Below are positions 3,759 through 15,572 of a stretch of DNA of 64,000 bases, piece by piece; the stretch's first letter is position 1; each line of letters begins with the position of its first letter. The position numbers and the translations under genes are program-made. The stretch comes from Nitrososphaerota archaeon (GTDB lineage: Archaea > Thermoproteota > Nitrososphaeria > Nitrososphaerales > UBA183): contig JAFMAA010000003.1 of NCBI GenBank assembly GCA_029785235.1, forward strand, positions 6,642 through 70,641, given 5' to 3'. Below the pieces are notes generated by a model. It searched no databases and was not told where the DNA came from. It was given only the letters and a program-made list of their open reading frames with translations.

Positions 3759-4202
3759 ATGATGGACGCTAAGGACTCGAAGATACTCGCTGAGTTGGTA
3801 TGCGACGGCCGGAGACCCATCGTTGATATTGCTAGCCACTTAGGGTTGCCTCGGGCCACAGTCCAGGATAGGTTGAGGAGGATGATGGAGTCAGGGGTGA
3901 TAAGGAAATTCGTCGCAATCCCGGACTACTCCAAAATCGGGAAGCGGGTGATGGCCTACGTCTTCGTCGCCTTCGGAGGCGAAGGGAGGCTCTCACAGAG
4001 GACGCTCGCAGAGGCGATATCGAAGATGCCGGGGGTCTACGAGGTGTCAGTGATTTCGGGGGAGTGGGACATTCTACTGAAGGTCAGGGCAAACACGTTA
4101 GAGGAGATTGGAAACCTCGTCGTTGACAGGTTGAGGTCCATGAGCGGGGTCGAAAAGACAGAGACCTGCGTCTCATTCCAAACTATCAAGGAGAGCTTCT
4201 AG
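3759..4202 (+). CDS. Lrp/AsnC family transcriptional regulator
   Basis: This 147-residue protein has an N-terminal winged helix-turn-helix (residues about 5-50, including ILAELVCDGRRPIVDIASHL and PRATVQDRLRRM). A C-terminal RAM/ACT-like effector and oligomerisation domain follows (about 65-140, with GVYEVSVISGEWDILLKV). This is the standard Lrp layout and size. Proteins of this family bind amino acids and act as dimers or octamers on palindromic sites. Its position, divergent from asparagine synthetase across a palindrome, suggests it controls asnA and itself in response to asparagine or a related amino acid. It also lies directly upstream of the aro operon, so a role there cannot be excluded. 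Confidence 0.92.
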   Translation: MMDAKDSKILAELVCDGRRPIVDIASHLGLPRATVQDRLRRMMESGVIRKFVAIPDYSKIGKRVMAYVFVAFGGEGRLSQRTLAEAISKMPGVYEVSVISGEWDILLKVRANTLEEIGNLVVDRLRSMSGVEKTETCVSFQTIKESF

Positions 4203-4335
4203 TCTAGGATTCTGTAGTCTTGTGTTTTGGATCCCAGGAAGCTCCTTCCAGGCCCAAGACCGAATTACGCCGGCCGGCCCGAAGAGGCACGTTCGTCGAG
4301 CAGGGCAAGGGGCGATGTACATCTTCGTGCACCAA

Positions 4336-4345
4336 TTCATAAATA
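4336..4345 (+). promoter_or_regulatory. Probable TATA box of the aro operon leader
   Basis: TTCATAAATA at 4336-4345 predicts transcription initiation near 4366. The aromatic leader reading frame starts at 4387, about 20 bases into the message, and lysC follows at 4489. A weaker CTATAG at 4437-4442 could serve as a second box with initiation near 4463, which would skip the leader. Confidence 0.5.
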
Positions 4346-4386
4346 GGTCACGGGTAGCCATCTGGTTCGCGAGAAACTTGGATGCC

Positions 4387-4449
4387 ATGACACGGGCTGA
4401 CCGTCCCGACCACTGGACCGTGTTTGGCTTTTTCGGCTATAGCTGGTAA
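4387..4449 (+). CDS. Putative aromatic leader peptide of the aro operon
   Basis: A 20-codon frame runs from ATG 4387 to TAA 4447-4449. Its last 11 residues are WTVFGFFGYSW, so all three aromatic amino acids occur (Trp10, Phe13, Phe15, Phe16, Tyr18, Trp20). It lies between a TATA-like box and the 11-gene aromatic operon. The stop codon is followed at once by a hairpin that hides the lysC ribosome-binding site. Bacterial trp, phe and his operons use such peptides for ribosome-stalling control. A similar device in an archaeon would be unusual, so the functional reading is inference. The frame could be chance, because it remains open upstream to 4222. Confidence 0.5.
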   Translation: MTRADRPDHWTVFGFFGYSW

Positions 4450-4464
4450 GAATCCCTTCCAGCT
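4441..4464 (+). promoter_or_regulatory. Leader hairpin 1 (alternative structure)
   Basis: AGCTGG (4441-4446, the Ser19-Trp20 codons) is complementary to CCAGCT (4459-4464). Pairing them puts the 5' arm of hairpin 2 (4449-4456) in the loop. The two hairpins cross, so they are mutually exclusive unless they form a pseudoknot. This is the geometry expected of a switch. Confidence 0.45.
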
Positions 4465-4482
4465 TTCAACTTGGGGGATTCT
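4449..4482 (+). promoter_or_regulatory. Leader hairpin 2, sequesters the lysC Shine-Dalgarno
   Basis: AGAATCCC (4449-4456) pairs perfectly with GGGATTCT (4475-4482), and two further U-G pairs extend the stem inward. The strand carrying the G-run GGGGGA (4473-4478), the likely ribosome-binding site 10 bases before the lysC ATG at 4489, is buried in the stem. No U-tract follows, so control would be at translation rather than by termination. Confidence 0.5.
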
Positions 4483-4488
4483 AGTTCA

Positions 4489-5712
4489 ATGAGCAAGAGC
4501 AGGTTTCATGAAATCGTCATAATCAAGTTCGGAGGGTCTGTGCTGGACGACGGACAAGCCATCGTTCAGGCTGTCGAGCTCATCGCCCGCACTCTCAGGA
4601 AGGGGGTGGGGGTTGTCGTCGTGGTCTCGGCGATGAAGGGGGTCACCGACGGCCTCCTCACCCTTTCCAAGGGAGTAAATCCCAACATGGAGGCATCTCT
4701 CGTAGACGAGCTCCTCTCGTCAGGGGAGAAGACTAGCGCCAGGCTTGTGGCTGCGTCCATGGCGCACCATGGGCTCAAGCCTGTTGTGATAGACACAGAC
4801 ACCCCTGGCTGGCCAATCATCACCGACGACAGGCATCAGGACGCCAACCCTATCATGGATGTCACACGACAGCGGAGCAGGGAGACCCTGCTCCCTATAA
4901 TCGAGCGCGGCGAAGTCCCCATTGTGTGCGGTTTCCTGGGGCGGACCGAGACAGGGAAGGTGACCACCCTGGGGCGCGGTGGGAGCGACACCACTGCGGT
5001 CCTCCTGGGGAGCTGCCTCGGGTCAAAGGAGGTCGTGCTCATAAAGGACGTCGACGGAGTCTTCTCGAGCGATCCTGGGAGAGTGAAGAACCCCCAGCTG
5101 ATCGAGAGTCTGAACGGCGAAGAGGCCGAGCTGCTCGCAGCGGGCGGGGCCAAGTTCCTGCATCTGAAGGCCCTCAGCTATCAGGCGCAGGGGCTTAAGA
5201 TTAGGGTGACCAGTCTGGAGAAACTCGACGCAGGGACGGTCATAGAAGGGGACATACCAGAGACCAAGGTAGAGGTGACCAACGTGGAGACCTCAATGAT
5301 GACCATCGTCGGAATAGACCCTGCGCGCTTCGAGTCCGTTCAGGCGGTCGCCGACGCGATAAGTGGGTGCGACGCCAAGATTCTGGCCCTCTCCCTGGAG
5401 TCGACCTCAGCTATCTTCTACATCTCAGGGGGCCGAGAGGTACTCGACCGAGTCCATCATGTCCTAGTCGGGGAGAGGATCGGCAAGGCGGTGTCGTCCT
5501 ACGACGGCCTGGCCATGATTTCGATTCGAGGGAGGGCCCTCGAGACCCAGCCAGGCATAGTCCAGCGGGTGACCCAGCCGCTGGCGAGTTCTGGAATCAA
5601 CCTATTCGGGATCGTAACAATCCAGTCGTCTGTCCGGGTGTTCGTATCCGCGGACCAGGCGCAGCGGGCGTCTAAGCTGGTCAAGGAATCGATGATGGTG
5701 GGGGTGCAGTGA
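4489..5712 (+). CDS. lysC: Aspartate kinase
   Basis: A 407-residue kinase that phosphorylates aspartate. The N-terminal amino-acid-kinase domain has IIKFGGSVLDDG, the TTLGRGGSDTTAVLLG loop and LIKDVDGVFSSDP. Two C-terminal ACT domains follow (about residues 265-400). The start is ATG 4489, because GGGGGA at 4473-4478 is a good Shine-Dalgarno for it; TTG 4471 is the other option. It opens an operon that leads into ADH synthase. In archaea lacking DAHP synthase, aspartate semialdehyde is the nitrogen- and carbon-donating precursor of dehydroquinate, so here this kinase serves aromatic synthesis as well as, possibly, threonine and lysine. It ends in a GTGA overlap with asd. Confidence 0.95.
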   Translation: MSKSRFHEIVIIKFGGSVLDDGQAIVQAVELIARTLRKGVGVVVVVSAMKGVTDGLLTLSKGVNPNMEASLVDELLSSGEKTSARLVAASMAHHGLKPVVIDTDTPGWPIITDDRHQDANPIMDVTRQRSRETLLPIIERGEVPIVCGFLGRTETGKVTTLGRGGSDTTAVLLGSCLGSKEVVLIKDVDGVFSSDPGRVKNPQLIESLNGEEAELLAAGGAKFLHLKALSYQAQGLKIRVTSLEKLDAGTVIEGDIPETKVEVTNVETSMMTIVGIDPARFESVQAVADAISGCDAKILALSLESTSAIFYISGGREVLDRVHHVLVGERIGKAVSSYDGLAMISIRGRALETQPGIVQRVTQPLASSGINLFGIVTIQSSVRVFVSADQAQRASKLVKESMMVGVQ

Positions 5713-6773
5713 GCAAGCTCCGGGCTGCGCTGCTGGGCGCGACGGGAGCGGTGGGCCAGAGATACCTCATGATGCTGAGCCGCCACCCTACCATCGAGCT
5801 CGAAGTGCTCATGGGAGGAGACTCAGCTGGCAGAGCTTACGGCGAAGCTGCCCGCTGGCTCGTCTCTGAGGACATCCCGGATAGATTCGCGGATAGGAAG
5901 GTACTCCCAACCGACCCGCGCAACGCGGAAGGGTGCGACGTTGTCTTCTCAGCGCTCCCCGCCGAGGCGGCTTCCACAGTCGAACCGGAGTTCGTCAAGG
6001 CTGGCCTCACGGTGATAAGCGAAGCTAGCGCTCATAGGCTCGAGGAGGACGTCCCCCTAGTGATTCCGGAGGTCAACCCTGACCACCTCGGGCTCTTGGA
6101 CTTGCAAAGGAAGAGGAGGGGATGGAGCGGTTCCCTGGTCGCCACCCCCAACTGTACTGTCACAGGACTAGCCATGGTCCTCAAGCCTCTATCGGACAGC
6201 TTCGCGCTAAGGCGCGCCATCGTAACGACAATGCAGGCGGTGTCAGGGGCGGGCTTCCCCGGCGTCCCTTCCATGTTGATCATGGAGAACGTCGTGCCAT
6301 ACATCAAGGGCGAGGAGGAGAAAGTCTCTGATGAGTCCCGGAAGATCCTTGGGACCCAATCGGAAATCGGGATTCGCAGCGCCAATCTGCAGATTGCTAT
6401 TTCGTGCAACAGGGTCCCGGTCATAGACGGCCACGTCGAGACGCTGTACGCTGAGCTTGGGAAGGACATCGAGCCGGAGGAGGCGGTGGACTGCCTGAAT
6501 AGGTTCCGGGGTGCGCCTCAGGAACTGGGTCTCCCTTCGGCGCCCATGCAGCCAATCATCGTCAGGCCTGAGCCAGACAGGCCTCAGCCCCGCCTGGACC
6601 GCCTCTCTGGCTCGGTCCCAGGCATGAGCGTAGCGGTGGGGAGGGTACGGAGGGGGCTAGGCCGCGACTCGATTCAGCTAACACTCGTTTCTCACAACAC
6701 AATCAGGGGCGCCGCAGGCACAGCGATACTCACGGCCGAACTTATGGATAACAAGGGGCAGCTCGGGAGATAG
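5709..6773 (+). CDS. asd: Aspartate-semialdehyde dehydrogenase
   Basis: A 354-residue NADPH-dependent enzyme that reduces aspartyl phosphate to aspartate semialdehyde. The Rossmann glycine motif is LLGATGAVGQRY near the N-terminus, and the catalytic cysteine is Cys149 in ATPNCTVTGLA. The dimerisation and substrate region (SGAGFPGVPS, CNRVPVIDGHVE) belongs to the archaeal/fungal subclass. The start is GTG 5709, overlapping the lysC stop as GTGA, which implies coupled translation. Its product feeds the next gene's enzyme directly. Confidence 0.95.
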   Translation: MSKLRAALLGATGAVGQRYLMMLSRHPTIELEVLMGGDSAGRAYGEAARWLVSEDIPDRFADRKVLPTDPRNAEGCDVVFSALPAEAASTVEPEFVKAGLTVISEASAHRLEEDVPLVIPEVNPDHLGLLDLQRKRRGWSGSLVATPNCTVTGLAMVLKPLSDSFALRRAIVTTMQAVSGAGFPGVPSMLIMENVVPYIKGEEEKVSDESRKILGTQSEIGIRSANLQIAISCNRVPVIDGHVETLYAELGKDIEPEEAVDCLNRFRGAPQELGLPSAPMQPIIVRPEPDRPQPRLDRLSGSVPGMSVAVGRVRRGLGRDSIQLTLVSHNTIRGAAGTAILTAELMDNKGQLGR

Positions 6774-6776
6774 GGT

Positions 6777-7568
6777 TTGGTCTCAGGCAAGACGTTCAGG
6801 ATTTCAAGAATCGTCGACCGCGGCAGGATGCTCTGCGTCCCAATGGATCACTCCATCACCAACGGCCCTATCAGAGGCCTCGAGGAGCCTGAGTTGATGA
6901 TAAAATCTGTCGCCGAGGGCGGCGCGACTGCTTTCCTAGCCCACAAAGGCGTCCTGAAAGCCCTCAAGGAGGCGCCCCCGATCGGCATGATACTCCAACT
7001 CTCGGCGAGCACCGTCCTCGGACCAGCTCCCAACCGGAAGGTCCTGATATCGTCAGTCGAGGAGGGGGTCAGGCTCGGAGCCGACGCCGTCTCCGTCCAC
7101 ATCAACATAGGCGCCAGGGAGGAGTCCGAGATGCTGGGCCAGCTTGGTATGGTTGCAGACGAGTGCGACAGCCTGCAGGTCCCGCTTATAGCCATGATGT
7201 ACCCTCGCGGAGAAGGAATCAAGGACCCGAACGACCCAGACACCATCGCCCACGTGGCCCGCATCGGCGCCGAAGCTGGGGCTGACATTGTCAAGACGGT
7301 CTACACCGGAAGCATCGAGACGTTCAGGGAGGTCGTGAGGAAATGCCCCGCCCCCGTGGTGCTTGCGGGGGGCTCTAAGGTCGACTCCGACAGGGCCCTG
7401 CTCGAAATGGCAGGCTCCGTCATGAGAGCGGGGGCGATGGGAGTGACCTTCGGGAGAAACGTCTTCGGGCACAGCGATCCTGTTGGCATTGTCAGGGCGC
7501 TGCGCAGCGTGGTGGTGGAAGGACAGTCCGCCGACAGAGCCATGGAGTCCCTCAGCCATGCTGACTGA
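6777..7568 (+). CDS. aroA': 2-amino-3,7-dideoxy-D-threo-hept-6-ulosonate (ADH) synthase
   Basis: A 263-residue class I aldolase-fold enzyme. It joins aspartate semialdehyde with 6-deoxy-5-ketofructose 1-phosphate to give ADH, the first step of the archaeal route to dehydroquinate. Visible features are the family's VPMDHSITNGPIRGLE opening, the Schiff-base lysine Lys173 in GADIVKTVYTG, and the phosphate-binding GGSKVD and GVTFGRNVFGH segments. A plain fructose-bisphosphate aldolase is the alternative, but the next gene is DHQ synthase II, which settles the role. The start is TTG 6777, four bases after the asd stop. Confidence 0.93.
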   Translation: MVSGKTFRISRIVDRGRMLCVPMDHSITNGPIRGLEEPELMIKSVAEGGATAFLAHKGVLKALKEAPPIGMILQLSASTVLGPAPNRKVLISSVEEGVRLGADAVSVHINIGAREESEMLGQLGMVADECDSLQVPLIAMMYPRGEGIKDPNDPDTIAHVARIGAEAGADIVKTVYTGSIETFREVVRKCPAPVVLAGGSKVDSDRALLEMAGSVMRAGAMGVTFGRNVFGHSDPVGIVRALRSVVVEGQSADRAMESLSHAD

Positions 7569-8571
7569 AGACAAGGCGCTGCTCCTCCATATTTCAGGGC
7601 CCGAGATGTCCGAGGTCATCCTTAACGACGCCGTAGCAGCCGGGGTGAGAGGGCTGGTCGTAGACCGGCCACTTTCGACATCAGTCCCACTGAACGGGCT
7701 CGATGTCTTCGAGGTCTCCGAAGGCGAAGGGGAGAACAAGGCTAGGTGGATTAAGGTAGCCGGGGCAGGCGACGTCGAAAGGGCGTTGACCGCAAGCACG
7801 TTGAGCCTGGCCTTCGTTGTCGTCGAGTGCTCCGACTGGCGCATCATCCCACTGGAGAACCTCATCGCGGAGTTCAGGCGCCGTGGACGCAAACTCTACG
7901 CCTACGCCGAATCGAAGGAACAGATTGAGACGGCTTTCTCCGTCCTTGAGCTAGGGGTCGACGGCGTCGTAATCCCATACTCTTCTATCGTCGAGGCCAA
8001 GAGGCTCTCCGTCAGAAGGGCAGAGCTCCCCCTCGAACCTGCCGAGGTGACAAGAGTAATGGATGCAGGGGTCGGAGACCGCGCATGCGTCGACACAACG
8101 TCGCTGCTGGAGGTAGGGGAAGGAATGCTCGTCGGGAGCAGGGGTGGGTTCTTCTTCCTCGTGCACGGAGAGACGATACCGTCGGAGTACATCGCCACCC
8201 GGCCCTTCAGGGTGAACGCAGGCGCGGTGCACAGCTATACTCTAGCCTCGGACGGGAAGACGAGGTACCTGTCGGAGCTCAAGCCCCCAGACACGGTCAC
8301 CATCGTGAGCAGCGGTGGAGGCAGCCGGGAGGCGTCGGTGGGAAGGGTCAAGATAGAGCGGCGGCCACTGGTGCTTGTGGATGCTAGGTCGAAGGCCGGT
8401 TCTGGGACGGTGATACTCCAGAAAGCCGAGACTATCCGTCTGGTGCGCCCCGGCGGGGGTGCGGTCTCAGTGACAGAACTAAAGACGGGAGACGCGGTCT
8501 TGGTTCACGTCGAGACAGCCAAAGCTAGGCACTTCGGGTTAGAGGTGGATGAGCATATCAACGAAAAGTAG
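7558..8571 (+). CDS. aroB': 3-Dehydroquinate synthase II (archaeal)
   Basis: A 337-residue enzyme that oxidatively deaminates and cyclises ADH to 3-dehydroquinate, using NAD. It matches the archaeal DHQ synthase II family, with VVDRPLSTSVPLNG early, then GEGMLVGSRGGFFFLVHGET and RPFRVNAGAVHSYTL in the centre. It ends with a beta-rich tail (VSVTELKTGDAVLVHVE). The frame is open further upstream, but ATG 7558 is chosen because it overlaps the aroA' end by 11 bases and gives the normal family start. It has no relation to the bacterial AroB fold. Confidence 0.93.
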   Translation: MLTEDKALLLHISGPEMSEVILNDAVAAGVRGLVVDRPLSTSVPLNGLDVFEVSEGEGENKARWIKVAGAGDVERALTASTLSLAFVVVECSDWRIIPLENLIAEFRRRGRKLYAYAESKEQIETAFSVLELGVDGVVIPYSSIVEAKRLSVRRAELPLEPAEVTRVMDAGVGDRACVDTTSLLEVGEGMLVGSRGGFFFLVHGETIPSEYIATRPFRVNAGAVHSYTLASDGKTRYLSELKPPDTVTIVSSGGGSREASVGRVKIERRPLVLVDARSKAGSGTVILQKAETIRLVRPGGGAVSVTELKTGDAVLVHVETAKARHFGLEVDEHINEK

Positions 8572-9274
8572 CGCGGTAGAGCTCGTCGCTCCCCCTATGG
8601 AGGGCCAGAAGACATTGGTGTGCACGTCCGTGTCGGCAAGAACACCAGCCGAACTGAGGGCCAAGGCGCAGAGGGCGTTCAACTCGGGGACAGATCTAGT
8701 CGAGTTCAGGCTGGACTCACTCAGGCCGTTCAGGTCTAAGGCGCAGGAAATCACAGAATTCTTGAGCAGGGCGATACTTACCGTAAGATCTCAGGGCGAG
8801 GGGGGAGACTTCGAGGGGAGGGAGCCAGACCGCCTGAACGCCATCAGGGCCTCCTGCGAACTGGGACCCGCCTATGTAGACGTCGAGCTCCGGACCCTCA
8901 GGGCTAATCACGACTTGGTCTCCGAACTGGCCGGCCAGAAACTCATCGTCTCTTGGCACGACAGTCTCCAGACTCCTCCCAAGGCCCGCCTAGCTTCTAT
9001 CCTAGCGGCCGCAAAGGCCTTCGGGGGCCTCGCGAAGCTGGTCCCCACCGCCAGAGAGGCATCAGACAACCTCGCTGTCCTGTCCCTGTATGGCTGTCGG
9101 GCCCCGGCGCCGATAGCATTCTGCATGGGTGAAGCGGGCGTGCTTTCAAGGGTCATGGCGATCGAACTGCGGACCCCCATCGTCTACGCTTCTCTCCCCG
9201 GGGAGCAGACCGCCCCCGGACAGCTCACCTTGTCCAAACTCCTGGCGCTGCGGAGGAAGCTGGGATGTGACTGA
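8549..9274 (+). CDS. aroD: 3-Dehydroquinate dehydratase, type I
   Basis: A 241-residue TIM-barrel enzyme that dehydrates dehydroquinate to dehydroshikimate through a lysine Schiff base. The sequence shows DLVEFRLDSL, the general-base histidine His137 in LIVSWHDSL and the Schiff-base lysine Lys163 in GLAKLVPTA. The end carries SLPGEQTAPGQL, a family signature. It overlaps the end of aroB' by 23 bases; ATG 8598 is another possible start. The downstream aroE begins 8 bases before its stop. Confidence 0.95.
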   Translation: MSISTKSSAVELVAPPMEGQKTLVCTSVSARTPAELRAKAQRAFNSGTDLVEFRLDSLRPFRSKAQEITEFLSRAILTVRSQGEGGDFEGREPDRLNAIRASCELGPAYVDVELRTLRANHDLVSELAGQKLIVSWHDSLQTPPKARLASILAAAKAFGGLAKLVPTAREASDNLAVLSLYGCRAPAPIAFCMGEAGVLSRVMAIELRTPIVYASLPGEQTAPGQLTLSKLLALRRKLGCD

Positions 9275-10103
9275 CCGGTACCTACTGCTGGGCGAGGACG
9301 TCAACGCCTCGCCTTCTCCCACAATGATGAACGCGGCCTTTGTTGCCATTGGCGTGGACGCGACATACGACGCCATCAGCGTTCCGCCCTCAGGCCTGGA
9401 CGACGCCTTCGGCAGGGTCAAGGATGACGGAGTCCAGGGCCTGAACGTCACCATGCCCCACAAGGCAGCAGTGATGCATCTGCTCGATTCGCTAGACGAA
9501 GTCTCGGCTAGCGTGGGCGCGGTGAATACGGTGAACGCCGAGCGAGGGGAGTATCGTGGGTACAACACTGATGTCGACGGAATCATCGAGCCGCTCGTGG
9601 CCCGCAATCTCCCGCCATTCCGCCACGCAGTCGCCCTAGGGACAGGTGGGGCGGCCAGGGCTTTCTGTGCTGCTGTGCACCAGACTGGGTCCCGCTCGCT
9701 GACGTTCTTGTCGAGAGACCCCAAGAAACGACAAATCTTCTTGGAGAGCCTGACGGCGGCTTTTCCTAGCATGAACCTGCGCGTCCTTTCGTACCACGAC
9801 GCCAAGTCCCAGCGCCCCGACCTGCTCTTCAACGCGTCGCCAGCCGGCTCAGGAGGGAGGCCCCTCCCGGGCGAAGTCTCGCTTCTGATGGATTCGAGAC
9901 CTGTCGTGTTCGACGCGGTCTACTCCCCGGTGGAGACCGAGCTGATGCGACTAGCTTCGGCCAGGGGCTGCACAGCAATTCACGGGTACGAGATGCTCCT
10001 TGCCCAGGCCATCAAGGCGCTGAAGATATGGACGGGGAGACAATGTCCAGCAGAACCTGTTAGGGAAGCGCTTCTTGCCTCCTTGGGGGTGGCGGCGATC
10101 TGA
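9267..10103 (+). CDS. aroE: Shikimate dehydrogenase
   Basis: A 278-residue NADPH enzyme that reduces dehydroshikimate to shikimate. It contains the substrate-site NVTMPHKAAVM and NTDVDG blocks and the nucleotide-binding ALGTGGAARAF loop. The C-terminal HGYEMLLAQAIKALKIWTG matches the family end. GTG 9267 is chosen as start because it gives YLLLGEDVNASPSP at the usual distance and overlaps aroD by 8 bases. The TGA stop forms a CTGA overlap with the shikimate kinase frame. Confidence 0.95.
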   Translation: MTDRYLLLGEDVNASPSPTMMNAAFVAIGVDATYDAISVPPSGLDDAFGRVKDDGVQGLNVTMPHKAAVMHLLDSLDEVSASVGAVNTVNAERGEYRGYNTDVDGIIEPLVARNLPPFRHAVALGTGGAARAFCAAVHQTGSRSLTFLSRDPKKRQIFLESLTAAFPSMNLRVLSYHDAKSQRPDLLFNASPAGSGGRPLPGEVSLLMDSRPVVFDAVYSPVETELMRLASARGCTAIHGYEMLLAQAIKALKIWTGRQCPAEPVREALLASLGVAAI

Positions 10104-10972
10104 TCGGAAGAGCCACCGCCATGGGTGCGGTCAGCATCGTCAACGCGATAGCGAGCGGCCGCGGAGCCTCATTCGCAGTGGACCTCCCCACGACAGCCAC
10201 GGTCGCGGTCCGCGAAGGGCGCGGCAGGTGGACGGGTTTGACGAACGGCAGGCCTGCTACCTCCACTCTGCTTCAGCAGACTGTGAGGAAGGCAATCGGG
10301 ACTCTGGGAAAGGACCCCAACAGATACTCCGGCCGGATAGAGACTGAGACATCAGCCCCAGTGGGCGTAGGCCTCAAGACCTCCTCCTCTTCATCCGTCG
10401 CGGCCGCCCTAGCAACCTTCTCCGCGTTCGGAAGGCATAACTATGAACCTGAACAAATCCTCGAATGCAGCGTTTCGGCTTCCCTCGCCAGCGGGACAAG
10501 CGTCACCGGGGCGATGGACGACGCAGCGGCATGCCTCCTCGGCGGCGGGGTTCTCACTGACAACCGTTCGAACAGCGTCGTAGCCAGGGTAAGACTGGGA
10601 AGACCACTTGTTGTCATCATCAGAATCCCAGACGACGGGAGCAGGAGGGCCTCCGTCCCCACGTCCGAGGTAAGACGCTTCGCAAAACTAGCGGACTCCA
10701 TCTTCGACCAGGCCAGACGGGGGAGAATTTGGAAGGCCATGATTTTGAACGGGTCACTTTACAGCGCAATCTACGGCTATCCGAACTCTGATGCCCTCGA
10801 AGCACTTGAGAACGGAGCACTAGGCGCCGGCCTCTCGGGGACCGGCCCCGCCGTGGCTTGCGTGTTCGACGACGTCGCCGCGGCAGAGAACCTCGAAAGC
10901 AACTGGAAGGAGATCGGGGGCATGACGGTCAGGACGAAGACCTCCGATGGAGGGGCCACGATTGGTCGCTAG
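10100..10972 (+). CDS. aroK: Shikimate kinase, archaeal GHMP type
   Basis: This kinase phosphorylates shikimate at O-3 and belongs to the GHMP (homoserine kinase-like) superfamily, unrelated to bacterial AroK. It shows the ATP-binding TSAPVGVGLKTSSSSSVAAA loop and LSGTGPAVACVF near the end. The family's conserved start, GRATAxGAxSIVNAI, begins before the first ATG (10121). The best start is therefore CTG 10100, which overlaps the aroE stop as CTGA and gives 290 residues. With ATG 10121 the protein has 283 residues and loses the GRATA strand. No ATG, GTG or TTG exists in between. The pattern recurs at 45139 and 49862. Confidence 0.9.
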   Translation: MIGRATAMGAVSIVNAIASGRGASFAVDLPTTATVAVREGRGRWTGLTNGRPATSTLLQQTVRKAIGTLGKDPNRYSGRIETETSAPVGVGLKTSSSSSVAAALATFSAFGRHNYEPEQILECSVSASLASGTSVTGAMDDAAACLLGGGVLTDNRSNSVVARVRLGRPLVVIIRIPDDGSRRASVPTSEVRRFAKLADSIFDQARRGRIWKAMILNGSLYSAIYGYPNSDALEALENGALGAGLSGTGPAVACVFDDVAAAENLESNWKEIGGMTVRTKTSDGGATIGR

Positions 10973-12251
10973 GGCGACTCTGGTGTCACGCGGGCCGCTC
11001 GACGGGAGCGTCAGGGTCCCTCCCAGCAAGAGCTATACTCACAGGTCAGTGCTCATGGCCAGCCTTTCGCCTGGGGTGAGCAGGGTCAAGAACCCCCTCC
11101 GCTCCAGGGACACTATCGCCACCGTCGAGGCGTGCAGGGCTATGGGCGCTGATGTAGCAGACTCGGGGTCCGATCTCGCCATAACCGGAGCAGAACCCAG
11201 GGCGGCGGTGAAGGATGTGAATGTCGAGAACTCAGGGACAACACTCAGGTTCATGACCTCAGCCTTCGCCCTCCCACTTCGAGGGAGGACAGTGCTCACG
11301 GGGGATGCGAGCGTTCGCATGAGGCCGATGCAAGGCCTCCTAGACGCGCTAGCTCAGCTCGGGGCAGAGGCGCACTCTGTCGCTGGGAACGGCTGCGCCC
11401 CCGTCGTCGTCGGAGAGGGAGGCATGCGAGGAGGGCAGGCCACCCTCCGTGGGGACGTTTCGTCGCAGTTCGTCTCCTCGATTCTCATATCCGCGCCGCT
11501 AGCGAGAGAGGACTCCTATCTGACGGTCGTCGACGCAGTCTCAAGGCCCTACATCGATGCGACCCTAAATCTCTCTGAGCTGCACGGCATACGCATCGAA
11601 CGAAACGGCTATGAGCGCTTTGTAATCCAGGCGGCCCAACAGTACCGCCTCGCCGACTTCGCCGTCCCCGCTGACTTCAGTTCCGCAGCCTTCGTCATGG
11701 CTGCGACCGCTCTGGCAGGGGGCAGAGTCGAACTCTTGGGCCTCGGGGGTGGGCTCCCCCAGGCAGACTCTGCGATTCTGAAGATACTCGGGGACCTGGG
11801 TGCAAGGATTGAACTCAGGTCTGACTCGGTGATGGTGTGCGCACAAGGCGATGGGCTCAAGGGAGGGTCTTTCTACCTTGGCGACTGTCCCGATCTACTG
11901 CCCGTGCTTGCCGCCTTGGCCCTGAAGTGCGAAGAGCCGCTGCGGATGTACGGTGTCGCCCACGCTCGGCTGAAAGAGACTGACAGGCTCAGTGTCCTAG
12001 CGCGGGAGCTCTCCAAGATAGGGGCGAGGGTCGAAGAACACTCCGATGGGTTGACGGTAACGAGGCCTCGCGAGTTCACCCATTCTAATCTGGACGCCCA
12101 CGGCGACCACAGGATGTTCATGGCTTTCGCTCTGGCCTCGCTCCTCGTACCGGGGGGAGTCCCAGTGATAGGTGTGGAGAGCCTCGATGTGTCATATCCG
12201 GGTTTCCTCTCCGACATGGAGCAGATCGGAGTCGGGGTCGCTGTGGGTTGA
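10947..12251 (+). CDS. aroA: 3-Phosphoshikimate 1-carboxyvinyltransferase (EPSP synthase)
   Basis: A 434-residue enzyme that transfers enolpyruvate from PEP to shikimate 3-phosphate. Visible landmarks are VRVPPSKSYTHRSVLMASL (substrate lysine and serine), ENSGTTLRFM, the RMRPMQGLLDAL block, GDVSSQFVSSILISAP and the C-terminal RLKETDRLSVLARELSKIG and DHRMFMAFALASL. The length is normal. ATG 10947 overlaps aroK by 26 bases; TTG 10962 is another possible start. It shares a TTGA overlap with aroC downstream. Confidence 0.95.
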   Translation: MEGPRLVARATLVSRGPLDGSVRVPPSKSYTHRSVLMASLSPGVSRVKNPLRSRDTIATVEACRAMGADVADSGSDLAITGAEPRAAVKDVNVENSGTTLRFMTSAFALPLRGRTVLTGDASVRMRPMQGLLDALAQLGAEAHSVAGNGCAPVVVGEGGMRGGQATLRGDVSSQFVSSILISAPLAREDSYLTVVDAVSRPYIDATLNLSELHGIRIERNGYERFVIQAAQQYRLADFAVPADFSSAAFVMAATALAGGRVELLGLGGGLPQADSAILKILGDLGARIELRSDSVMVCAQGDGLKGGSFYLGDCPDLLPVLAALALKCEEPLRMYGVAHARLKETDRLSVLARELSKIGARVEEHSDGLTVTRPREFTHSNLDAHGDHRMFMAFALASLLVPGGVPVIGVESLDVSYPGFLSDMEQIGVGVAVG

Positions 12252-13351
12252 GCGGGAACATCATAGGCGAAAGGTTCCTGCTGGTCACCTTCGGCGAAAG
12301 CCATGGGAAGGTAGTCGGCGCGGTCTTGGACGGATGCCCTGCGGGCCTGGCTCTGAGGGAAGAAGACATCCAGGCGGAACTCGACCTGAGAAGGCCGGGC
12401 CAGTCGATAGTCACTTCCCAGAGGAAGGAGGAGGACAGAGTGGAGATAATGTCCGGGGTCTTCAACGGCCGCACCACCGGCGCTCCGATAATGATGCTCA
12501 TCAGGAACGGGGACAAGGACTCAAGGCCCTACGACGCGATGGTGAACTCCCCCCGCCCAGGCCATGCAGACCTAGTCGCGAGGCTGAAGTACGGAGGATT
12601 CAACGACTATCGGGGGGGAGGCAGGTTCTCCGGAAGGATCACGGCGTCCTTCGTGATGGGCGGAGCCGTGGCGAAGAAGCTCCTGCACGAGGTGCTGGGG
12701 GTGGAGGTCATCGCCTATTCGCTGGAGATCGGCGGGGTTCGCGCCGAGAGGTTTGACGTGGACACAGCCAGGAAGAACCGATATGAGAACGATGCCCGAG
12801 CTCCCACGACCGAAGCCGCGGTCCTGATGAAGAAGAAGATAATCGAGGCCCGCGGGAGAGGGAACAGCCTCGGCGGCATCGTCGAATGCGTGGCGCTTAA
12901 CGTTCCGCCCGGCTTAGGCGAACCTGTCTTCGCATCCTTGGACTCTGACCTCGCACGGATGGCCCTCTCAATCCCCGCCGTCAAGGGCGTGGAGTTTGGC
13001 TCCGGGTTCGCTTCGGTCAGACTCAGGGGGACTGAGAACAACGACGAGTATTACTTCCAAGGCGACAGGGTCGTGACGAAAACGAACAACTCCGGGGGAA
13101 TCCTCGGGGGGCTTTCGAATGGGATGCCCGTCGTGTACAGGGTCGCCTTCAAACCGGCATCGTCCGTTGCATCCAAGCAGACGACGGTCGACCTAGCCTC
13201 CAGGAAGGAGGTGGAGCTCATAGTGCCGGGGCGCCACGATCCGACGGTGGTCCCCAGGGCTGTCCCGGTGGTTGAAAATGCGACTGCACTCGTGCTCGCA
13301 GACCATGCAATCAGAGCGGGGAAGATTCCCCCGGTGCTCAGGGGACCATGA
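12248..13351 (+). CDS. aroC: Chorismate synthase
   Basis: A 367-residue FMN-dependent lyase that makes chorismate from EPSP. The family signatures are clear: FGESHGKVVGAVLDGCPAGL, the RPGQSIVTSQRKEEDRVEI block, RPGHADLVARLKYG, DYRGGGRFSGRITA and the late GRHDPTVVPRAVPVVE. The start is TTG 12248, overlapping the aroA stop as TTGA, and its own stop overlaps the next gene as ATGA. This gene completes the chorismate pathway within the operon. Confidence 0.96.
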   Translation: MSGNIIGERFLLVTFGESHGKVVGAVLDGCPAGLALREEDIQAELDLRRPGQSIVTSQRKEEDRVEIMSGVFNGRTTGAPIMMLIRNGDKDSRPYDAMVNSPRPGHADLVARLKYGGFNDYRGGGRFSGRITASFVMGGAVAKKLLHEVLGVEVIAYSLEIGGVRAERFDVDTARKNRYENDARAPTTEAAVLMKKKIIEARGRGNSLGGIVECVALNVPPGLGEPVFASLDSDLARMALSIPAVKGVEFGSGFASVRLRGTENNDEYYFQGDRVVTKTNNSGGILGGLSNGMPVVYRVAFKPASSVASKQTTVDLASRKEVELIVPGRHDPTVVPRAVPVVENATALVLADHAIRAGKIPPVLRGP

Positions 13352-14748
13352 CAGAGACGAAGCCGGAGCCTGGAATAGACGACCTCCGCGCCAAGATATC
13401 CGAGACCACCAGAGAGGTCATCAGGCTTGTCGGCCGCAGGAACAGCCTGGCCCGCGAAGTAGGGAGGCTGAAGGCCATGGGGTCCATCCCCATCGAGGAC
13501 GACGCCGTCGAGGACTCCCTGCTCAGGGATGTGACAGAGGAGTGCGACCGCGCCGGAGTGGAAAGGAGCGCAGGCCTGAAGATGCTCGCCCTTCTCCTCG
13601 CCGAGTCCAAGAAGGCCCAGGGGGTACAGGCACGGCAATCTGGGCCGAGCCCCATGTCGGTCTTCGCCAAAGCCATCGAGCTGCAGAGAGGAGGGGCGAG
13701 ACTGATACGCCTCGACGTGGGCGAGCCTGACTTCAAGCCGCCCCCGGCTGTCATCGAAGCGTGTTCAGAGGCCCTGTTCGGCTTCAAGACGCACTACACC
13801 GAAGCGAAGGGTATCCCGGAGCTCCTATCCGCACTCAGGGGTTACCTGCGAAGGAAGAGCGGCTTCACAGCAGATGAGGACGAGGTCGCGGTGACCCCTA
13901 GCGGAAGGTTCGCCGTATACGCAAGCCTCTCCGCGTTAGTTTCTGAAGGGGACAGCGCCATCGTCCCAGAGCCCAACTGGCCCGCCTACCGCGAAGCCCT
14001 TCAGCACCTGGGAGTGAAGCCCATCATAGTCCGAAGCAGGCTTGAGAACGGCTGGTCGCTCTCACCCAGCGAAGTGGAGGGGGCAATCCGCCCCAACACC
14101 AAGGCGATAATCCTGAGCTACCCCAACAACCCGACTGGCAAGGTGTTATCCCCAGAGGCCTTCAGGGAGGTGGTCCAGATCGCTGACGATCGCGGCCTCA
14201 CGGTGGTAAGCGACGAGATATACAACGAGTACTCGTCAAAGCCCTGTCCAAGCGTCCTCCGTACGGTCCCTAGGAAATTCGTGATGACCTCGTCCTTCTC
14301 GAAGACCTGGGCGATGACCGGGTTCAGGATAGGCTACGTCGTCTCCAGCAAAGACATCGTCGCCAGGGTAACAAGCATGATCTCGTTGATGTTTTCTTCG
14401 GTCCCCGAGTTCATTCAATACGGGGCCATCAGGGCTCTCGACTCGGACGCCGAAGTCAAGACGAACGTGACGGAGATGAAGGAAAGGATTGAAGCCGTCT
14501 CAAAGGAGCTGGACAGGATTGAATCATTGGAGTACTTCAAGCCCGACGGCGCCATGTACTTCTTCCCGCGGCTAAGGAAACGGGGACTGACGGGAAGGAA
14601 GTTCGTCGAACGCCTCCTCCAGAAGGGGGTCACCGTAACCCCTGGCGCCGCCTTCGGGGCCTATGAAGACTTCTTCCGAATCTCCTTAGGCCAACCCAAG
14701 GAGACTATCATCGAAGGAGTGAGGAGGATGGGTGACCTACTCGCTTGA
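13348..14748 (+). CDS. Chorismate mutase (AroQ)-class I aminotransferase fusion
   Basis: A 466-residue two-domain protein. Residues about 8-92 form an AroQ-type chorismate mutase helix bundle (IDDLRAKISETTREVIRLVG, RNSLAREVGRLKAMG, IEDDAVEDSLL, SKKAQ). The arginine usual before the catalytic Glu in the DxxRE-type turn is Val here. Residues about 100-466 form a PLP fold-type I aminotransferase with SYPNNPTGKV, VVSDEIYNEYS and the PLP lysine Lys319 in SSFSKTWAMTGFRIGYV. The likely role is to make prephenate and then transaminate prephenate, phenylpyruvate or hydroxyphenylpyruvate. It lies between aroC and tyrA with 4-base overlaps on both sides. No stop or frame change separates the domains, so the fusion looks genuine. 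Confidence 0.9.
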   Translation: MTETKPEPGIDDLRAKISETTREVIRLVGRRNSLAREVGRLKAMGSIPIEDDAVEDSLLRDVTEECDRAGVERSAGLKMLALLLAESKKAQGVQARQSGPSPMSVFAKAIELQRGGARLIRLDVGEPDFKPPPAVIEACSEALFGFKTHYTEAKGIPELLSALRGYLRRKSGFTADEDEVAVTPSGRFAVYASLSALVSEGDSAIVPEPNWPAYREALQHLGVKPIIVRSRLENGWSLSPSEVEGAIRPNTKAIILSYPNNPTGKVLSPEAFREVVQIADDRGLTVVSDEIYNEYSSKPCPSVLRTVPRKFVMTSSFSKTWAMTGFRIGYVVSSKDIVARVTSMISLMFSSVPEFIQYGAIRALDSDAEVKTNVTEMKERIEAVSKELDRIESLEYFKPDGAMYFFPRLRKRGLTGRKFVERLLQKGVTVTPGAAFGAYEDFFRISLGQPKETIIEGVRRMGDLLA

Positions 14749-15572
14749 GGGTCGCCGTCCTAGGCTCCGCCGGAGCCATGGGCTCATATTTCGTAGAATA
14801 CTTCCGACGCCTAGGTCACACGGTCGCGGGATCTGATGTACAACGAACAGGCTCCCTGCTTCAGGCCGGTACTGTCTCTTCCAACCTAGGTGCCGTCAGA
14901 CAGGCCGACCTCGTCCTCCTCGCCGTCCCTCTCTGGGACACCCTCAAAGTAGCCAGGGAGATTAAACCTGCCCTGAAGCGCGGCTGCACGCTCGTCGAAA
15001 TCACGTCAATCAAAGGGACGACGCTGGCCCAGCTCGAGAAGATCGCGTCTTCCTGCGATGCCTCCCTGCTCTCTCTCCACCCAATGTTCGGACCATCATC
15101 GAGGTCGAAGGCACCTAGGATACTGGTGGTGGGAAAGGGCAGAGACCTGGAGACCGCAAGGGGGATTTTCAAGGGGGCGGAACTTACCTTGGTCGGGGCA
15201 GAAGATCACGACCGGCTTGTGGCATACGCACTCTCGCTAGTGCACCTTACCAACCTGGCCTTCGCCATGGCGGTGGCGAATGGTCCAGGTCTGAAAAAGC
15301 TCCAGAAGTCCGCCCCGCCTTTCGCCTCAGCCCAGCTGGACCTCGTTAAGGCAGTCCTCCTGCAGGGCCCTGAACTCTACTTCTACATCGATACCATGAA
15401 CAGGTCAGTCACGGACGCCCTCTCCTCGACCATCAACGAGCTCTCTACACTGAGGGCCATCATCGCGAAGAAAGACTCGAAGGCCTTCGTCAGCGAATTC
15501 TCAAGGCTCCTGCGCCAGTTCAGGAAGTCGGAGTTGGAGGCTTCCCTCGCCAAGGTCTATGCGAAATCCTAG
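14745..15572 (+). CDS. tyrA: Prephenate dehydrogenase
   Basis: A 275-residue NAD(P)-dependent enzyme that converts prephenate (or arogenate) toward tyrosine. It opens with a Rossmann motif (VAVLGSAGAMGSYF) and has ITSIKGTTLAQLEK and LLSLHPMFGPSSRSKAPRIL, the family's substrate-binding His-Pro-Met-Phe-Gly block. A helical dimerisation domain fills the C-terminal half. It lacks a mutase or ACT domain. The start is TTG 14745, overlapping the upstream stop as TTGA. It is the last gene of the operon, and its stop overlaps the stop of the converging trpA. Confidence 0.93.
   Translation: MRVAVLGSAGAMGSYFVEYFRRLGHTVAGSDVQRTGSLLQAGTVSSNLGAVRQADLVLLAVPLWDTLKVAREIKPALKRGCTLVEITSIKGTTLAQLEKIASSCDASLLSLHPMFGPSSRSKAPRILVVGKGRDLETARGIFKGAELTLVGAEDHDRLVAYALSLVHLTNLAFAMAVANGPGLKKLQKSAPPFASAQLDLVKAVLLQGPELYFYIDTMNRSVTDALSSTINELSTLRAIIAKKDSKAFVSEFSRLLRQFRKSELEASLAKVYAKS

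Follow-up and report, generated by a model that had tools for sequence, protein, structure and literature searches.

The window, by which we mean the whole 64,000-nucleotide stretch of DNA analysed here, comes from a genome (G000) of 0.91 Mb that is 66% complete, and it is placed in the Gagatemarchaeaceae (Thaumarchaeota Group I.1c), within a phylum that we take to be the Thermoproteota of GTDB. Its forward strand carries an operon in which profile matches give the order lysC-asd-aroA'-aroB'-aroD-aroE-shikimate kinase-aroA-aroC-aminotransferase-tyrA, so the chorismate operon that a first-pass annotation had called behind a leader is borne out. The operon's first gene is lysC, for aspartate kinase (4489..5712; TIGR00657, above cut-off), followed by asd, for aspartate-semialdehyde dehydrogenase (5709..6773; TIGR00978, above cut-off), aroA', for 2-amino-3,7-dideoxy-D-threo-hept-6-ulosonate (ADH) synthase (6777..7568; TIGR01949, above cut-off), and aroB', for 3-dehydroquinate synthase II (7567..8571; PF01959). 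Behind them lie aroD, for type I 3-dehydroquinate dehydratase (8549..9274; TIGR01093, below cut-off), aroE, for shikimate dehydrogenase (9270..10103; PF08501), an archaeal shikimate kinase gene (10121..10972; TIGR01920, above cut-off), aroA, for EPSP synthase (10947..12251; TIGR01356, above cut-off), and aroC, for chorismate synthase (12248..13351; TIGR00033, above cut-off). An aminotransferase gene with an N-terminal extension (13348..14748) has 90 model matches, the best 25 of which are to aminotransferases or their PLP-enzyme relatives, none of them above cut-off; the extension is chorismate-mutase-like, judged by eye only. The last gene is tyrA, for prephenate dehydrogenase (14745..15572; PF02153).

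The archaeal aromatic route is fed with aspartate semialdehyde by LysC and Asd, so it makes sense for an aspartate kinase gene to head an aromatic operon. Over the 12-13 kb read per relative, and with aroB' outside the comparison, the same gene order is found in L126, L127, L129, L130 and L131, and also in L128, where asd does not adjoin lysC. At each of the 29 loci whose sequence reaches far enough, the ADH synthase gene is a neighbour of lysC or one gene off: directly behind lysC in 22, behind asd in five and divergent in two (both of family f34). A gene of the Lrp/AsnC regulator family (3759-4202) lies directly 5' of the leader and points in the same direction; it is a possible second regulator of the aro operon. 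The isolate AcS1-27 (JAPCJP010000001; L032) is grouped under Ca. Gagatemarchaeum in the available excerpt of PMC10640624.

The leader itself is a short open reading frame 5' of lysC. The frame first described at 4387-4449 is exact: it translates to MTRADRPDHWTVFGFFGYSW, its tail reads WTVFGFFGYSW, and Phe, Tyr and Trp account for six of the final 11 residues. The ATG at 4387 is probably not its start, since the relative L003 has ATT there, whereas relatives keep an in-frame TTG at the place of the window's TTG 4378. Among relatives the in-frame start matching TTG 4378 is TTG, or ATG in three genomes of genus g7. A TATA box, ATAAATA (4339..4345), is assigned to the leader/lysC promoter by its spacing to the leader start, a distance of 36-39 nt in 21 of 25 leaders (21 from the Gagatemarchaeaceae and four from family f20); outside this range fall three genomes of genus g2, with 44 nt, and L026, with 32 nt. 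Because the TTG is kept in relatives and lies 36-39 nt behind a TATA box, the ORF likely spans 4378-4449 on the forward strand (23 codons, MDAMTRADRPDHWTVFGFFGYSW), with its true start probably at TTG 4378, nine bases 5' of the ATG. From the same spacing, transcription should start at about 4365-4371, roughly ten bases before the TTG, so that the mRNA would begin almost at the leader ORF.

The stop codon of the leader abuts a hairpin. The stem of 8 bp between 4449-4456 and 4475-4482 is exact; its 5' arm (4449..4456), which acts in the fold as an anti-Shine-Dalgarno (SD) strand, begins at the final base of the leader stop, and its 3' arm (4475..4482) overlaps the lysC SD, GGGGGA (4473..4478), at the same place as a GGAGG in several relatives. 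The proposal that this hairpin buries the lysC SD stands, as the SD of the window has a pairing probability of 0.99 against 0.79 in the null (p 0.023). The segment from the stop to lysC folds at -13.9 kcal/mol (z -2.9; as stable in 3 of 200 shuffles), and the 151-nt leader taken whole is of unremarkable stability (z -1.1; 31 of 200 shuffles). Removing 4447-4456, the stop codon plus seven bases, which would lie under a ribosome at the leader end, leaves the stop-to-lysC segment with -3.0 of its -13.9 kcal/mol. When the bases under a ribosome at the stop are occluded in simulation, mean SD pairing over the 25 leaders falls from 0.85 to 0.71 and that of the window from 0.99 to 0.62, or to 0.93 with a shorter removal, while in L004, L006 and L008 it stays at 0.90-0.98. 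In other words, ribosome occlusion would weaken the hairpin strongly, yet in this simple model it does not clear every SD. An Rfam search of window positions 4000-5000 gave six matches only, to miRNA and lncRNA models far below the gathering score, and 11 related loci gave no match, which places the leader in neither the T-box family nor any other Rfam riboswitch or leader family. Pairing between the leader start and the hairpin loop was considered as a first model and is striking in L157, L014 and L006; cross-species pairings often scored equally, since purines prevail in the 5' part and pyrimidines in the 3' part. The window has no such pairing (p 0.76), and it was dropped as a general feature.

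A rival pairing had also been described, and it too is exact: strand 1, the Ser-Trp codons AGCUGG (4441..4446), can pair with strand 2, CCAGCU (4459..4464), of which 4459-4462 can instead join 4471-4474 in the uppermost pairs of the hairpin. The segment 4435-4470 that holds this rival stem folds at -10.4 kcal/mol (z -2.2; 5 of 200 shuffles). Throughout genus g1 the stop is preceded by the hexamer AGCUGG or AGUUGG, whose partner is CCAGCU or CCAACU; seven of the eight distinct g1 leaders form the complete six-pair stem, L010 by a relocated partner, and the eighth forms five pairs. Of compensatory changes in this stem, one correlated change is seen, AGC/AGU with CCAGC/CCAAC in g1, and the events are few. 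The partner change in strand 2 is also matched on the SD side in L005 and L008 (CUGG to UUGG). Three g7 genomes pair the leader end over 9-11 bp with the segment just 5' of the SD; the covariation of this stem is not above shuffles (160 of 500). In several clades no such alternative stem can be made out.

Operon-type lysC was found in 22 of the 46 Gagatemarchaeaceae genomes searched, and the leader lies at the same place in all 21 distinct upstream regions of the family (L007, whose leader is identical to that of L006, was left out of the counts). The expectation that the aromatic codons would be conserved across relatives is supported, in that they are kept at the same place: the eight distinct g1 leaders all end in GYSW, seven of the eight g7 leaders finish with FGF and a further two or three residues, the other with YGFRY, and the leader of the single g5 genome reads NRLYLSYSYWVSYYY. 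The further expectation, that relatives keeping the operon do not lose these codons, holds only in part; the leaders of three g2 genomes have two aromatic residues each with the operon kept, and in most other Nitrososphaeria regions there is no aromatic-rich leader. Two of the four f20 leaders are weak. Over the 25 leaders, whose frames were picked for this test by their peptide tails, 130 of 561 residues in the leader frame are aromatic, compared with 42 of 536 and 48 of 536 for the two remaining frames (23% vs 8-9%), and mononucleotide shuffles give a mean of 47 with a maximum of 67 in 2000. An unbiased scan of the family places 13 of 21 regions at p<=0.02, with at least six aromatic residues among the last 14 in eight of 21. 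SD pairing is at least 0.98 in seven of the eight g1 leaders and 0.79 in the eighth; over the 25 near leaders it averages 0.85 against a null of 0.74, a moderate excess, and three g7 members are low (0.34-0.60). The remaining 24 of the 46 genomes, some of them incomplete, are without an aro-type lysC. In five of these (G016, G003, G009, G010 and G017) the only ADH-synthase-like genes are distant paralogues (best E 2e-38 to 6e-43), a pattern that points to operon loss and perhaps to auxotrophy for aromatic amino acids.

The predicted bias towards synonymous substitution is absent: over 14 close pairs, which are not independent and whose counts were summed, there are 43, 49 and 45 changes at codon positions 1, 2 and 3, with no third-position excess, a pattern that counts against coding constraint on the leader peptide. 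Six close pairs have gapped alignments, four with 3-base gaps only and two with other gaps.

The leader extends well beyond the Gagatemarchaeaceae. When 398 genomes of the phylum were searched by profile, 86 had this LysC, two of them in the genus of the window; from the remaining 84 a sample of 68 was analysed, and the 16 outside the sample are weaker matches or lie at contig ends. At least six aromatic residues occur in the last 14 codons in 43 of these 68 genomes of other classes, Bathyarchaeia included, and 38 of the 68 reach p<=0.01. In the 43 distant leaders, which were selected for frame 0, 349 of 602 residues are aromatic in frame against 55 and 63 of 602 in the other frames. Some hold ten aromatics, examples being NPYYYYYYYCFF, FGFFYGFYFYFYFGP, FFFSFWSYYYFALA and SFDYGFYYFGYFP. 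Aromatic-rich leaders occur in families f25, f31, f32, f34, f37, f41, f44 and f47 and in three Bathyarchaeota records (L034, L035 and L036), and the Jordarchaeia genome L033 has an aromatic leader, weakly. The remaining families, f29, f36, f38, f53, f62 and f79 among them, do not reach six aromatics. Elsewhere in the Nitrososphaeria two of 24 regions have at least six and most lack an aromatic-rich leader; of 19 class-level regions, seven entered the statistics and 12 (f21, f22 and f24) were read only.

Comparable loci behave differently. The same scan of bacterial lysC found none with at least six aromatics among 34 of 80 bacterial loci. At 30 trpE loci, taken from genomes picked for their aro leader, with starts set by similarity and 280 nt scanned, the same kind of scan found one locus with six aromatics, two with five and none with seven, so that no leader of comparable kind was seen for the trp operon there. 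Ahead of aroA' in f2, f3, f8, f10 and f11, families that we take, partly from genome features, to be mostly ammonia oxidisers, none of 15 loci has an aromatic-rich leader (maximum five); most of these loci have a TATA-like box close 5' of aroA', by eye. On these comparisons of sequence, the leader feature goes with the lysC-led operon and not with archaeal intergenic DNA in general. The trpE result also bears on a simple coupling or reinitiation scheme, in which the leader does no more than deliver ribosomes to lysC and the aromatic codons in it have no role of their own. The leader stop does lie 39-90 nt 5' of the matched lysC start in all 25 near leaders, as such a scheme would have it, but the aromatic enrichment, its absence before trpE and the hairpin at the stop would all be left unaccounted for, and we consider coupling alone very improbable.

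Across families the peptides diverge yet stay aromatic, ending for instance in GYSW, FGFYYF, SYWVSYYY, NWPYYWYYF or FFFSFWSYYYFALA, and their sequences and lengths differ. Phe and Tyr interchange at aligned places (FGFFGYSW vs YGYYGYSW). Codon use in the 43 distant leaders is TAT 120, TAC 45, TTT 85, TTC 82 and TGG 17, with Trp rare and Phe and Tyr dominant. That the peptides vary, that Phe and Tyr are swapped and that both codons of each are used argues for regulatory codons. The TnaC leader peptide, by comparison, stalls the ribosome with tryptophan, and one could imagine that the leader peptide here likewise binds a free aromatic amino acid or a pathway intermediate in the exit tunnel and arrests its own synthesis. 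An N-terminal RGGSVY in six of the eight g7 leaders, and RGGSLY in the other two, would fit nascent-peptide arrest, as would an RGDx(L/V)Y peptide encoded in many families. Against it, what the aromatic leaders of different families have in common is their composition, with neither sequence nor positions fixed; conserved arrest residues at set places, of the TnaC kind, were not found among them; and neither the window nor the Bathyarchaeota leaders L034-L036 contain the RGD motif. We regard arrest by the peptide as improbable.

In many Nitrososphaeria families (L112-L124, L160 and L023-L031) an exact or near copy of the nucleotide motif behind that peptide, GAGGCGATNNACTTTAY, occupies this same position ahead of lysC. 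Its reading as a conserved peptide RGDxLY is countered by in-frame stops in three f13 genomes and by its placement in f22, where the motif lies inside the LysC N-terminus, such as MVEGDLLYIYVLK; this argues for a nucleotide-level signal in those families. The motif is not part of the window's leader. It could nevertheless be supposed that the leader only resembles an ORF and is in truth an element of the DNA or RNA, such as a site where a protein binds. The persistence of GAGGCGATNNACTTTAY in several families despite in-frame stops (TGA in G079 and G057, TAA in G324), the 18 of 31 matches to its degenerate form in 400 genomes that precede lysC, and the even spread of changes over codon positions would agree with a non-coding element. 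Yet the motif is degenerate in the genus of the window, where it has no match, and the aromatic content is frame-specific and built from both Phe codons, both Tyr codons and TGG, so that we give this explanation hardly any credence.

Hairpins at the leader stop are common across families. Helices were sought between the stop and lysC in 68 leaders (25 near plus 43 distant): the 5' arm lies -3..+6 nt from the stop in 59 of the 68, against 41% in shuffles, the longest helix is at least 8 bp in 49, against 18% in shuffles, and the z of the stop-to-lysC fold is below -2 in 43. By a loose pattern, an SD-like sequence occurs in the 3' arm in g6, in four of eight g7, three of four f20, three of three f37 and three of six f32 leaders. 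The f25 set comprises 21 leaders, 20 of them distinct, and over the 20 distinct rows its paired positions hold 7 cells changed on both sides against 1.8 expected (0 of 500 shuffles). In f25 (L212-L236) the outer six pairs, GCCCAG/CUGGGC, are invariant in the 20 rows, as if the sequence itself were recognised, and the inner pairs covary. In the f25 leaders that were read, the hairpin sits 5' of the SD and not on it.

The form of the hairpin also bears on transcriptional attenuation, in which the hairpin behind the stop would end transcription unless a slow ribosome prevented it. A hairpin of 13-15 bp followed by U5 lies between the leader stop and lysC in f41 (L241 and L243), and a hairpin followed by a U run is present in f47; both are terminator-like. 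No U run follows the hairpin of the window, which in that respect does not qualify as an intrinsic terminator, its 3' arm overlaps the SD, and the other g1 leaders are alike. For the clade of the window we therefore think transcriptional attenuation unlikely. Because the hairpin is terminator-like or 5' of the SD in some families, the translational label is perhaps partial: to judge from the folds, it may hold for only part of the families, and elsewhere the output step may differ.

We propose that the leader acts in cis on the aromatic operon as a ribosome-mediated attenuator, translational in the clade of the window, and we put the probability of this explanation, the best we have, at about 0.7. 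The leader ORF is enriched in codons for the operon's products, a stable hairpin lies where a ribosome at the leader end would interfere with it, and in the window, not so in f25, the SD of the first gene lies inside the hairpin behind the leader. Hypothetically, when charged aromatic tRNAs are plentiful, the leader would be read through, the ribosome would leave, the hairpin would close on the SD and expression of the operon would be low. Should too little of an aromatic tRNA be charged, the ribosome would linger on Phe, Tyr or Trp codons. A ribosome lingering near the stop would cover the 5' arm of the hairpin, and one lingering a few codons earlier would leave the last codons free for strand 2. 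By either stall the SD would become more exposed, and lysC and the genes behind it would be translated.

The first-pass annotation had a stall at Tyr18 or Trp20 cover the 5' arm. The reach of a stall was estimated with the bacterial ribosome footprint: with Trp20 in the A site the ribosome would cover up to about 4456, as claimed, whereas at Tyr18 it would reach only about 4450 and hardly cover the arm. If the ribosome stalled at Trp10 or Phe13, strand 1 would be available to form the rival stem (-10.4 kcal/mol).

Leader-peptide attenuation is a textbook bacterial mechanism. In the excerpts of the cited papers used here, ribosome-mediated attenuation in bacteria uses regulatory codons (PMC1183508), and the trp, his and pheA attenuators resemble the archaeal leader in having a short leader ORF with codons for the operon's product, followed by hairpins (PMC1183508). 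Slow codon reading raises expression in those systems, and the same would be expected of the archaeal leader. They differ in that the leader described here is archaeal, its first gene encodes the aspartate kinase of the ADH/3-dehydroquinate synthase II route, the hairpin in the clade of the window hides an SD instead of ending transcription, and a single leader bears codons for all three aromatic amino acids (compared with PMC1183508). The erm leaders, as the excerpt of PMC5118997 presents them, are alike in that a ribosome stalled on the leader ORF opens an inhibitory stem-loop, as it would here; the signal here would be uncharged aromatic tRNA and not a macrolide, and the ribosome is archaeal.

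Archaeal control of aromatic biosynthesis operons is also exerted by TrpY and Tar/TK0271, which unlike the leader are DNA-binding proteins (PMC6737238, in excerpt); proteins of this kind are the archaeal aromatic-gene control that we found in print. As far as the excerpt of the same paper goes, almost all Crenarchaeota with aro, tyr-phe or trp operons are without TrpY and Tar, and a third regulator or mechanism is suggested for them (PMC6737238). The aromatic leaders are a candidate for that third mechanism. We think it reasonably probable, from the sequences compared, that the same sensor operates over 10 families from the Gagatemarchaeaceae to the Bathyarchaeia, with an output diversified into SD hiding and terminator-like forms, controlling the lysC-led aromatic operon, and that it is a candidate mechanism for lineages without TrpY or Tar. 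No earlier case of an archaeal leader-peptide attenuator was found in the open-access literature, as searched by titles and the starts of abstracts. If the proposal is true, archaea of many families within one phylum would, like bacteria, detect a lack of aromatic amino acids at the level of single codons, and translation of a leader could control expression in these archaea. The leaders would then also offer a simple reporter of tRNA charging for little-cultured lineages.
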